From Nitrospira sp. BO4 (lineage in GTDB: Bacteria > Nitrospirota > Nitrospiria > Nitrospirales > Nitrospiraceae), in assembly GCA_030144965.1 (NCBI GenBank), contig JAMPUU010000017.1:186001-250000 (forward strand): a stretch of DNA of 64,000 nucleotides, read 5' to 3'. The position numbers were made by a program, and so were the translations under genes. Below, one piece after another: positions 33,301 through 49,452 of this stretch (position 1 is the first letter of the stretch; each line of letters opens with the position of its first letter). The notes beneath the pieces were generated by a model that searched no databases, had not been told where the DNA came from, and saw only the letters and a list, made by a program, of their open reading frames with translations.

Positions 33301-33302
33301 TC

Positions 33303-33422
33303 GGATGCTGAAACAGGTCTCTCGCGGCGTTCTCGGTCGTTCGTCCACCTCACCGTACACGAAACGTACGCCTCGGTGTCCGAGCTTCCTGCAGCCTTGC
33401 GACAGACCCTTTTGATCTGCCG
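33303..33422. repeat. Degenerate palindromic intergenic repeat (Nitrospira-type), copy 1
   Basis: The stretch begins GGATGCTGAAACAGGTC and ends CCCTTTTGATCTGCC, weakly complementary. Internal landmarks are GGCGTTCTC, CACCGTAC, GTACGCCTC and GCAGCCTTGC. Read in the same sense they recur in order in the reverse complement of the element at 48526-48687 (CGTTCTC, CAACGTAC, GTGCGC, GCGGCCTTGC, CCTTTTTGA). It fills the purH-purD gap. The similarity was found by eye and is partial. Confidence 0.5.
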
Positions 33423-33491
33423 CAAACAGTAGTCGAAGATCCAGATCCTTTGCAGATAACCCACGGAATTGTCGGCTTGTCATAATTCCAC

Positions 33492-46172: not shown

Positions 46173-46787
46173 ATGAAGTCTGTAATGAGGGCCACCACTG
46201 CCTCTGCGGTCGCTTCGATCTGTCTGTTGGTGTTGGGCGTACCCAGCCTCTGGGCGAATGATCCGAGCTATGGCCATGCCGGAGGAGGACATGGCTATGG
46301 AAAAGGGATGATGCACAGCGGCACCGGGCATCTGATCCGGCATTTGCTCAAACACGAAAAGGATATCGGACTCACCGCCGACCAGGTCACCAAACTGAAA
46401 GACATTCAGCTGAATCTTGACAAAGCACGGATTAAGGCGGAAGCCGATATTCAAATCGCTGAACGTGAACTGAGAGCGCTGACGGAGAGTGAGAAGTCTG
46501 ATCTCACCGCGATCGAAGCAAAGCTCAAGCAAAGCGAAGACCTGCAGGTCGGGCTGCGCATGACTTCCATCAAGACCCGCCGTGATGTGATGGGCTTGCT
46601 GACTCCGGAACAGCGTGCAAAGGAAACGTCTGAGCACGACAAAGTGATGGATCAGCACAAAGGCTCTGGATCGCCGCATGGAGGCGCAATGCCGTATGGC
46701 GGGAATCCTCATGGCGCCAATCCGCACGGCAAGAACCCTCATGAAGCCGTACCCCCTACACCACCGAGCAACATGTCCGTACAGTAA
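46173..46787 (+). CDS. Spy/CpxP-like periplasmic protein, His-rich
   Basis: A 204-residue exported protein. The signal peptide is [20 protein letters not shown] with cleavage near SLWA. After a His/Gly-rich stretch ([20 protein letters not shown]) comes the Spy/CpxP-type helix pair with LTxxQ motifs: [20 protein letters not shown] and [13 protein letters not shown]. The C-terminus repeats NPH three times ([19 protein letters not shown]), suggesting metal binding. ATG 46173 follows AAGGAGG; the frame extends to 46140. Its stop TAA shares one base with a possible ATG of the next reading frame, and ilvD follows within 17 bases. A periplasmic chaperone or metal-binding role is inferred. Confidence 0.82.
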
Positions 46788-46804
46788 TGCGGTCAGGAAG
46801 GCCT

Positions 46805-48478
46805 ATGCACAAGGAACTGAAGTTACAGAGTCATGATCTTCTCGTCGGCGCCGGCCGGGCCCCGGCTCGAGCCATGTTAAAAGCCGTTGGGTTTACCGAC
46901 GATGACCTGTCGAAACCTCTCGTCGGCGTTGCCAACACATGGATCGAGGTCATGCCATGCAATTTCCATTTGCGGCGGCTTTCAGAGCGAGTGAAGGCCG
47001 GGATTCGAGCGGCTGGTGGAACTCCAATCGAATACAACACCATCGCAGTGTCCGATGGGATCTCGATGGGAACGGAAGGAATGAAAGCGTCGCTGATCAG
47101 CCGCGAGGTGATCGCAGATTCAATCGAGTTGGTGGCCCGCGGACATTTGTTTGATGCGGTGGTGGCTCTGTCGGGTTGTGACAAGACAATCCCTGGCACC
47201 GTCATGGCGCTCGCCCGTCTGAATCTCCCATCGATAATGCTCTATGGGGGATCGATCATGCCTGGCCGTTTCCAGGGCCATGACGTGACTATCCAGGACG
47301 TGTTTGAAGCAGTCGGTAAACATGCGTCGGGTAAGATGAGCGACGCCGAGCTGAAAGACTTGGAAGATCATGCCTGCCCGGGACCGGGTGCCTGTGGAGG
47401 TCAGTTCACCGCAAACACCATGGCCATTGCGTTCGAGTTTCTCGGTATTTCACCGATGGGCCGCAATGGCGTTCCGGCCATGGACGACCGAAAGGATGAT
47501 GTAGCGTTTGAATGCGGCAAGATGGTGATGGATCTCATCAAGCAGGATCTGCGCCCTCGTCAGATCATTACCCGAAAGTCGTTGGAGAATGCCATCGCCG
47601 CAGTCGCCACGACGGGTGGATCGACCAATGCCGTTCTGCATCTGCTCGCCATTGCCCGTGAATCCGGGATCAAGTTGAGCATCGACGATTTTGACAAGAT
47701 CAACCGCAAGGTTCCCCTACTTGCCGATCTCAAACCAGGGGGACGCTTTGCCGCGGCGGACCTCTACGCCGCTGGTGGAACGATCCTGGTTGCCAAACGA
47801 TTACTCGATGCCGGACTCCTCCATAAGAGTCAGCCCACGGTCACAGGGCGAACCATCGGCGAAGAGGCATCGAACGCCCGTGAGACTCCTGGCCAACAAG
47901 TCCTGCGTCCCCTCTCCGATCCTATTAAACCGACAGGCGGTCTTGTGATTCTCAAGGGCAATCTGGCACCGGAAGGCTGTGTGGTCAAGGTGGCTGGACA
48001 TTCCATGATGAAATTCCAGGGGCCGGCGAAGGTCTATGACCGGGAAGAAGATGCATTCGTGGCGGTCAATGCAGGCCAGATCAAGCCGGGCGATGTCGTC
48101 GTCATTCGGTATGAGGGTCCGGCCGGTGGACCAGGGATGCGTGAAATGTTGGGCGTGACGGCCGCAATCGTGGGGGCCGGACTTGGCGACTCTGTCGCCC
48201 TGCTGACCGACGGGCGTTTCTCCGGTGCGACACACGGATTGATGGCGGGCCATGTCGCCCCTGAAGCCGCCAAAGGCGGGCCCATCGCGTCCGTTAAAAA
48301 CGGCGATATGATCACCTTCGATATTCCCAAACGCCGTCTGGACGTTGCGTTATCTCAGAAAGAAATAGTGTCTCGGCTGAAAAAGGTCAAACTACCCGTA
48401 CCACGCTATACCTCGGGTGTGATGGGGAAATATGCCAGACATGTCTCATCCGCCTCAGAGGGCGCCATTACGAGCTGA
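46805..48478 (+). CDS. ilvD: Dihydroxy-acid dehydratase
   Basis: A 557-residue [Fe-S] enzyme for the third step of branched-chain amino acid synthesis. Three cluster cysteines are seen: Cys52 (VMPCNFHL), Cys125 ([10 protein letters not shown]) and Cys197 ([14 protein letters not shown]). Other signatures are [12 protein letters not shown] and [20 protein letters not shown] near the C-terminus. ATG 46805 has AGGAAGG at correct spacing; ATG 46787 would add six residues. It lies 17 bases after the Spy-like gene, an unusual pairing that may be chance cotranscription. Confidence 0.96.
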
Positions 48479-48525
48479 TCATCCCGACTCTATTGTGCCT
48501 GCTTACACTCACAGGAGCCCCACAG

Positions 48526-48687
48526 GCTGTTCAAAAAGGCCGCCGTCTTTACCCACCCAGCCCCAGCGCGCCAAGACGCGCCGTTCCACGAGCAAGGCCG
48601 CAACGAGCGAAGAGGTGAAGCGCACCCTTCTCGTACGTTGAACCTCTGAGCGATGTGAGAACGAAGCTGGAGGCGTTTTTCAACAGC
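48526..48687. mobile_element. 162-bp palindromic repeat element with near-perfect terminal inverted repeats (MITE-like), copy 2
   Basis: GCTGTTCAAAAAGGCC (48526-48541) and GGCGTTTTTCAACAGC (48672-48687) are inverted repeats agreeing at 14 of 16 positions. The interior has no gene and includes AAGGCCGCAACGAGCGAAGA and CGTACGTTGAACCTCTGAGC. It fills the ilvD-to-ABC-permease gap completely and almost touches the permease stop at 48691. A degenerate relative lies at 33303-33422. Elements of this kind are, from memory, repeated in Nitrospira genomes; that is recollection rather than something tested here. Confidence 0.7.
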
Positions 48688-48690
48688 GTG

Positions 48691-49452
48691 CTAGCGGAAA
48701 TCGCGCCGTTGGAAAATGAGGGACGCGAGCATCAGAAGAAGGGTGGTATAGGCCAGTCCATAGGCCGCGATCAACAGCAAATCACCGGTCGGTACATCAA
48801 GTTGATGAGTCACGTGTCCTTTCAGATTGAATCGATCCAGGTTCGGCAGGATATAGTACATCCCCTCCAGTACGGTACGACCTGCCCCTTCCATCTTTTG
48901 GCCGAACGCCTTTAGATCAGGCGTCAGGTGGCCGATCACATAAATCGCCAGGGTAAAGATCGCGCTGAGTGTCGCGCTCGAAAAGGTCGAGAAAAGCAGC
49001 GCGACTGCCGTGATCACCATGAATTCCAAGACAATCATCCCAAGCGCCTTAAACAGCACGGCATGAACAGGAACGTCTTGAAGGGAAAGCACCGCCAGTA
49101 ACCCGGCTGCCATGACGGCCGTATTGATGACCAGCGTGAGACTGAGTCCCAAATATTTTCCCAACAGGAACTGAAACCGGGCCACCGGTTTGGAAACGAT
49201 GGTGTAGATGGTTTTCTTCTCGATTTCCTTGCTGACCAGGCCGATACCGACGAAAATGGCGATCAGCACCCCGAAGAAATTGATGCTGCCGAGGCCGATA
49301 TCCAAAATGAGACGATGAAACTCCCCAAGCGTCAACCGCATCAATATCAGCGAACTGCCGATCATGAGAAGCGCGAAGATCAATAGGTTGTAGAGCAGTT
49401 TGTCACGAAGGTTCTCACGAAACGTATTCAGCGCAATCGAGAGCACCTTCAT
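48691..49452 (-). CDS. ABC-2-type permease, PilI-like
   Basis: A 253-residue membrane protein with about six hydrophobic helices. It begins with the ABC-2 feature MKVLSIALNTFRENLRDKLL, followed by LLYNLLIFALLMIGSSLILM, and ends in YTTLLLMLASLIFQRRDFR. The VSKEIEKKTIYTIVSKPVAR segment near residues 75-95 is the usual coupling helix to the ATPase. Its start overlaps the stop of the ABC ATPase gene by one base. Placed in an operon-like run with a pilin, it resembles PilI of the Myxococcus PilGHI transporter, which is needed for pilus formation; that link is inference from gene order. Confidence 0.85.
   Translation of the reverse strand: MKVLSIALNTFRENLRDKLLYNLLIFALLMIGSSLILMRLTLGEFHRLILDIGLGSINFFGVLIAIFVGIGLVSKEIEKKTIYTIVSKPVARFQFLLGKYLGLSLTLVINTAVMAAGLLAVLSLQDVPVHAVLFKALGMIVLEFMVITAVALLFSTFSSATLSAIFTLAIYVIGHLTPDLKAFGQKMEGAGRTVLEGMYYILPNLDRFNLKGHVTHQLDVPTGDLLLIAAYGLAYTTLLLMLASLIFQRRDFR

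Follow-up and report, generated by a model that had tools for sequence, protein, structure and literature searches.

A probable decayed transposon copy with a preserved hairpin between an ilvD-like and a permease-like gene of Nitrospira sp. BO4

Introduction

What occupies the gap between an ilvD-like gene and an ABC-transporter permease-like gene of Nitrospira sp. BO4 is the question raised by the window analysed here, that is, the whole stretch of 64,000 nucleotides. A first-pass annotation, made from the letters of the sequence, described the 162 bp at 48526-48687 as similar to a miniature inverted-repeat transposable element (MITE), with near-perfect terminal inverted repeats, an interior without a gene, an exact fit to the gap and a degenerate relative at 33303. 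The best explanation of the feature as a whole, which we consider quite probable, is a decayed copy of a non-autonomous transposon that has preserved a hairpin. Its origin as a transposon-derived repeat is well supported; a MITE with ends of the IS5 type is a known kind of element, and the new part is the preserved hairpin. MITEs are usually seen as passive remnants of insertion sequences, whereas here the structure of the interior is conserved across much of the phylum while the ends change, which suggests that the hairpin is useful to the element or to its host.

A worn copy between two genes

The gap between the two genes spans 48479-48690 (212 bp), and the element leaves 44 bases on the ilvD side uncovered, so that the exact fit claimed at first does not hold (Table 1). 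The paired 16-mers lie where they had been placed (48526-48541 and 48672-48687), and they do agree at 14 of 16 inverted positions. An inverted-repeat search of the window finds no inverted pair of at least 12 bases at this segment, and the whole segment folds better than its shuffles (as DNA, z -3.1; 1 of 200 shuffles is equally good). The 16-mer pair is therefore weak on its own, and the segment stands beyond chance because a family of copies exists, whose profile matches the window at 48589-48693 (E 9e-24). The left 16-mer, taken at first for a terminus of the element, turns out to be the left arm of the hairpin: complete copies carry a further left domain that is lost here, and a search of the window with the profile of that domain gives no significant match (the best, at E 0.22, falls on the right end). 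The relative near 33303 is real.

Table 1. Coordinates of the element, its parts and its neighbours in the window
Feature	Position	Strand	Remarks
Degenerate copy of the hairpin unit with a nested module, left transposon end lost	48523-48690 (168 bp)	+	Covariance model 68.8 bits
Nested module of ~46 bp (C-rich tract and small G+C-rich hairpin)	48543..48588	+	In the left arm; copies compared by eye
Right CTAG target copy	48691-48694		Contains the permease stop codon (TAG, minus strand)
Second, more worn copy of the hairpin unit	33301-33423	-	Covariance model 53.2 bits; profile E 9e-15
Neighbour gene, ilvD-like	46787..48478	+	Named from reading the sequence
Neighbour gene, ABC-transporter permease-like	48691..49452	-	Named from reading the sequence; stop codon inside the right target copy of the element

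The permease-like gene is adjoined by an ATPase-like gene, which is likewise named from reading the sequence. The window copy contains no called gene and no tRNA, in agreement with the first description, but its interior is not empty, as it holds a hairpin with compensatory changes that is found across the phylum. Comparison by eye indicates that simple copies lack the nested module of ~46 bp, while similar modules occur in the left arm of L010, L011, L014, L017 and L018, in the apical loop of L026, L092 and L102, and in both places in L025. Moreover, L017 and L018, both from the own genome, have in common an insert of ~90 bp within the hairpin that contains GTTCGCCCGTAGCATGATTCTTGGCGAAC (about 297-395).

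The complete unit and its target duplications

The window segment has 24 matches in its own genome, itself included (best other E 2.7e-42), and the family profile, applied to 25 fetched loci and the window, yields 29 copies after merging, including a weak one at E 9.5e-4; the same profile finds zero matches on 20 shuffled windows. A typed consensus of the family matches 57 of the 59 genomes searched, the own genome included; within the genus, 34 of 35 genomes match. The check proposed at first, a search of this and related genomes for copies with the same ends, thus comes out positive in both.

The simple unit is an imperfect palindrome of ~124 nt. In many copies, it is preceded by a left domain of ~80 bp starting CTAGCAGGCTGCGGAAAAAC, which a profile finds before 81 of 220 units, and the complete unit consists of the left end CTAGCAGGCTGCGGAAAAAC plus about 60 bp, followed by the palindrome. 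Both ends are present in 70 copies. Measured between the flanking 4-mers, 46 of these span 197-202 bp, with a mode of 198, while 10 fall below this range and 14 exceed it (at most 377 bp). The flanking 4-mers are identical in 36 of these 70 copies, compared with 20.8 after permutation (0 of 5000 permutations as high), where the permutation runs within the set, most of the loci were chosen by a pattern and the right flanks lean to YTA. The identity is not confined to one tetramer: in the 22 long copies without CTAG on either side, 13 have matching flanks, including CTAA/CTAA and TTAG/TTAG. Flank identity and the 198-bp mode together indicate that it is the long form that moves, creating a 4-bp duplication that is mostly CTAG, which supplies the target-site duplications sought from the outset.

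The consensus ends CAGGCTGCGGAAAAAC and CAGGATGCTGAAAAAG are alike at 13 of 16 positions, so that the family combines terminal inverted repeats with a target-site duplication, and its members are short, gene-free and dispersed (none of the 29 copies of the own genome lies inside a called gene, and 3 of 195 do in a larger, pattern-biased set). The MITE-like label given to the segment is therefore right, although incomplete. The outermost bases of the hairpin double as the right transposon end. In L031 and L036, the usual left domain is replaced by a different left part with an apparent inverted repeat of its own (ATTCGGTGGTCGC...).

Insertion sequences as candidate partners

A scan of five genomes with the end sequence returns, among the matches listed, a 1.29-kb insertion sequence (L090) with perfect ends and CTAG on both sides. 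Its transposase of 360 aa matches NCBIfam IS5_4 at 251 bits (cut-off 140) and Pfam DDE_Tnp_1, and is thus of the IS5 type. The IS5 group typically duplicates a 4-bp YTAR target, and so do the insertion sequences found here: identical 4-bp flanks occur in 14 of the 19 two-ended copies (L122 and L129, whose ends have two or three mismatches, are counted outside the 19), with CTAG in 12 of those 14 and CTAT/CTAT and CTAA/CTAA as the remaining pairs. Their ends include TAGCAGTCTGCTGAAAAAC, TAGCAGGCTGCGGAAAAAC and TAGCAGGCTCCTGAAAAAC, and CTAGCAGGCTGTTGACAAA in a more distant lineage.

The consensus left end of the element is exactly of the TAGCAGGCTGCGGAAAAAC type. Conversely, its right end CAGGATGCTGAAAAAG is close to no insertion-sequence end, none of the insertion sequences examined has CAGGATGCTGAAAAAG at both ends, and beyond the end of ~20 bp no likeness between the element and the insertion sequences is seen when they are compared by eye. 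Of 79 genomes of the genus, 39 have relatives of the transposase; neither the own genome nor a second genome of the species is among them, which counts against the partnership. The matching transposase that the first-pass annotation advised looking for hence exists in other Nitrospira genomes, where it shares the left end and the target with the element, but not in the genome of the window. An IS5-type transposase is the likely agent of movement in trans, judging from the shared end and target, and we infer this mobilisation rather than observe it because the right end of the element matches the insertion-sequence ends poorly.

Two further groups of mobile DNA appear in the same material. L093, L094 and L098 (about 100-235) contain another small element, ~135 bp long and bounded by near-perfect ends CTAGCAGGCTGCGGAAAAACCC, and its ends are closer to those of the insertion sequences than the ends of the element studied here. 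In L130, L132-L136, L138 and L139, insertion sequences of a second lineage are also flanked by CTAG; their ends resemble CAGGCTGTTGACAAA and their transposase frames span ~300-410 codons.

A hairpin with compensatory changes

The palindrome behaves as a structure whose two arms change together. In 35 diverse copies (35 of 48 units, all selected independently of the right-arm pattern), 95.0% of the cells are paired, compared with 85.8% after shuffling and 33-40% when the partners are slid. Both sides have changed in 25 of 37 pairs, compared with 11.9 after shuffling, and the covariation is 0.296 versus 0.138. None of 500 shuffles reaches the observed pairing values, although the shuffles carry no correction for ancestry. 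In the larger alignment of 159 copies (160 units less one of 152 bases; pattern bias touches the right arm in 88 of the 159), 23 of 38 pairs show more than one Watson-Crick type, with every type counted here found at least twice.

The hairpin also contains mismatches that hardly vary. Specifically, C10 faces C115 in 155 of 159 copies, GA/GA stands at 50-51/74-75 in 152 and GCA/GA at 33-35/91-92 in 145, while GA/GA at 42-43/82-83 (107 copies) and at 38-39/86-87 (96 copies) is less fixed. Copying from arm to arm would erase such mismatches and selection for the fold would keep them, which favours selection, and the hairpin is likely kept for its fold.

These observations bear on the simplest rival, namely that the element is a plain MITE, whose palindrome is there only because its two arms are transposon ends or copy each other by gene conversion or template switching, and whose folded strand has no function. 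The double role of the outermost bases as hairpin and right transposon end agrees with it, and stable stem-loops are described as usual in MITE transcripts (PMC10969869). Yet the compensatory changes extend to the inner stem, far from the ends (helix 3, 6 of 6 pairs), the conserved C10-C115 and GA/GA mismatches would vanish under arm-to-arm copying, and distant genomes keep the inner loops while the ends differ (see below), so that this explanation appears unlikely.

The direction of the changes suggests which strand is folded. Rough parsimony counts on a tree, made without the doubtful pair 38-88, give 124 changes to G-U against 45 to A-C in all copies and 58 against 26 in the 71 copies not chosen by pattern (p 6e-4), with 26 against 14 for the inner pairs alone (p 0.08). 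The corresponding base changes number 65 against 70 at unpaired positions of the 71 copies, which serve as a control. In the unstructured left domain they stand at 343 against 258, so that part of the G-U bias may be mutational. The plus strand is moderately supported as the folded strand.

Distribution across the phylum

The covariance model R1 has matches in 87 of 198 genomes of the phylum, the own genome included (E <= 1e-4 per genome), which belong to 35 of 95 genera and also to other classes; 111 genomes are without a match. A fuller search of distant genomes, picked for having matched already, finds matches in 17 of 17, with 2 to 63 each. In a right-arm pattern scan of named genome contigs, the 80 records listed of the 118 stretches are all titled Nitrospira or other Nitrospirota. 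The other genome searches extend as far as the phylum; outside it, two typed hairpins searched against plasmids and one pattern searched against viral contigs give no match.

In the distant hairpins, the inner loops are largely kept (AAGGC.G, GGAGGCGTAC..GTACGTTGAGGA, GACAACG) and the ends are different; in G206, from another family of the same class, a shorter CTAG-like left end is seen by eye in two or three copies. In Nitrospira, the transposon ends are probably younger than the hairpin that they flank.

Insertion sites and gene ends

Comparison of two genomes of the species reveals a site that differs between them: the second genome (G093) has a copy, at the predicted boundaries, where the own genome is uninterrupted, since bases 1-375 and 621-1101 of the locus (L266) match adjacent stretches of the own contig C17 at 98%, with a TA overlap. 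The same site carries a copy in two other species, for which reason the absence here may be a loss; the identity between these species and G093 is 82-84% in the element and 82-83% in the flanks, compatible with either origin, and the site may reflect an old insertion lost here or separate insertions. Conversely, the element in the ilvD-permease gap is common to the own genome and G093, whereas the gap is free of any element in 19 other genomes whose fetched locus includes both genes (30 permease loci were fetched, and the 19 hold ilvD within 1.4 kb); L063 has a weak 37-base match (E 0.006) on the other side of the permease.

Many copies lie at the ends of genes, as called by a simple codon-usage caller. 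In 10 of the 29 copies of the own genome, the right flank contains the stop codon of a gene running towards the element (TAG in 6, TAA in 4), and 5 of 29 are followed, 11-15 bases past the element, by the start of a gene with the same orientation. The target itself offers an explanation: the window has 37 CTAG sites where 243 are expected (an avoidance of ~6.6-fold), and 24 of the 37 lie outside genes or at stop codons, while called genes cover 81% of the sequence. With CTAG rare and its sites mostly between genes or at stop codons, copies would thus come to rest at gene ends, and the target alone can explain their position.

An alternative would place the hairpin at gene ends for a purpose, as a bidirectional intrinsic terminator selected site by site. 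Its G+C-rich stem is bordered by A5 and U5 tracts on both strands, the coincidence with stop codons of genes pointing at the element is exact in the 10 copies mentioned, and convergent gene pairs flank 51 of 167 copies in the larger set, compared with 17.5% of gaps of at least 50 bp, although this set leaned on loci picked with a pattern that fixes the right end. In the own genome the share of convergent pairs is close to the background: the 27 copies with two neighbours are 21 tandem, 5 convergent and 1 divergent, and the 137 background gene pairs are 96 tandem, 21 convergent and 20 divergent. The right-hand gene runs towards the element in 18 of 27 cases in the own genome, which is the trustworthy count, versus 129 of 167 pattern-picked loci. 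Furthermore, the same-direction genes that begin just past 5 copies are at odds with termination, a pattern scan for terminators finds none in the window copy, and no termination site lies near the conserved apical loops. Termination selected site by site is therefore an unlikely account of the element.

A proposed mechanism

For the preferred reading, a decayed non-autonomous transposon copy with a preserved hairpin, the following course of events can be put forward. The complete unit would be acted on in trans by a DDE transposase of the IS5 type whose own element has this left end and this target; the copies would settle at gene ends, where the duplicated target would preserve the stop codon. 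One single strand would then be folded and recognised, with the plus strand the likelier strand and RNA the likelier form, and one possible role of the fold is that of an element for transcript ends or for processing, through which insertions at stop codons would become tolerable. Both its action as RNA and its task there are proposals. The near genus-wide presence of the element and its gene-end positions may bear on transcript ends in these nitrifiers.

A broader view is possible, and we advance it tentatively: the family could be a structured RNA that is mobile throughout the phylum. Its core would be an ancient hairpin of ~120 nt, with covarying helices and fixed tandem G-A loops, that also exists in Geobacter and relatives and has been amplified to tens of copies in many genomes. 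In Nitrospira it would have been joined to the ends of CTAG-targeting insertion sequences, which bring it to gene stop codons, where its transcript would act on mRNA ends or bind a protein.

Comparison with known repeats

The nearest known systems for the ends are the IS5 insertion sequences of the CTAG (YTAR) type and their MITEs, with which the element shares the left end, the 4-bp CTAG-like duplication, the lack of genes and the many dispersed copies, but from which it differs in that its interior is a covarying hairpin, more widespread than the ends. REP/BIME repeats with their RAYT transposases are likewise extragenic palindromes, and differ in transposase, in size and in the duplications at their flanks. 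That the element is such a repeat, mobilised by a RAYT (HUH) transposase in the form of a single-stranded hairpin, is highly improbable: the genome does have one RAYT-type gene, and RAYT substrates are hairpins with fixed mismatches and one preferred strand, like the hairpin of the element, but that gene, the only Y1/RAYT-type gene of the genome (L059:1410-2161), lies between inverted copies of a different repeat (AAAAGGGGTCGGGAGTC), the unit (hairpin of ~124 nt, 198 bp in all) is far longer than a REP/BIME unit of 20-40 bp, and HUH chemistry is ill-suited to 4-bp target duplications.

The ERIC/IRU palindrome of ~127 bp is similar in size and also mostly intergenic, but has enterobacterial hosts; the two are likened by description. 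ERIC/IRU sequences are reported in tens to hundreds of copies (PMC10969869). In another study, N. moscoviensis appears in a table of REP counts, so its short palindromes have already been counted in print (PMC12306157). In the literature searched on Nitrospira repeats, on CTAG-targeting IS5-family MITEs and on MITEs at stop codons or terminators, no description of the element is found. Nor does a known RNA family fit: Rfam has no match to the window copy or to one good copy at E <= 1, gives for L093, L095, L097 and L099 only a sub-threshold miRNA match (in L093, a different element), and, in a search of eight distant loci at E <= 0.1, detects a single family, tmRNA, in a different part of L317. 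Beside these families, the material holds a frame starting MAVSLYVGIDIAKAQLDVAC (L102:454-513) after a partial element in G024, which presumably resembles an IS110-type transposase.

A likeness of another kind concerns the apex of the hairpin. The only match to any of four motif strings in the literature searched is a 2009 work on Geobacter short RNA elements, which, in the passages available, describes an unnamed intergenic multicopy family with a central palindrome GRCGTAGCGCTGCTACGCC, also names G. sulfurreducens, G. uraniireducens and Desulfotalea psychrophila, and places one element between dapAB and dapL, genes that it describes as co-transcribed (PMC2700814). The Geobacter family belongs to another phylum, those passages mention neither mobility nor a target site nor covariation for it, and the likeness, as far as they go, is that of the apex. 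Nitrospira copies have a different apical loop on a similar stem. The covariance model R1 is a means of seeking the family elsewhere, including among these unnamed elements of Geobacter metallireducens. As to the apices themselves, the apical stems of the distant copies L318 and L324 read GGCGTAGCAGCGCTACGTC, whose reverse complement fits the palindrome given in those passages exactly, while the apex of L335 (GGCGTAGCAGAGCTACGTT) differs from that fit at two positions.
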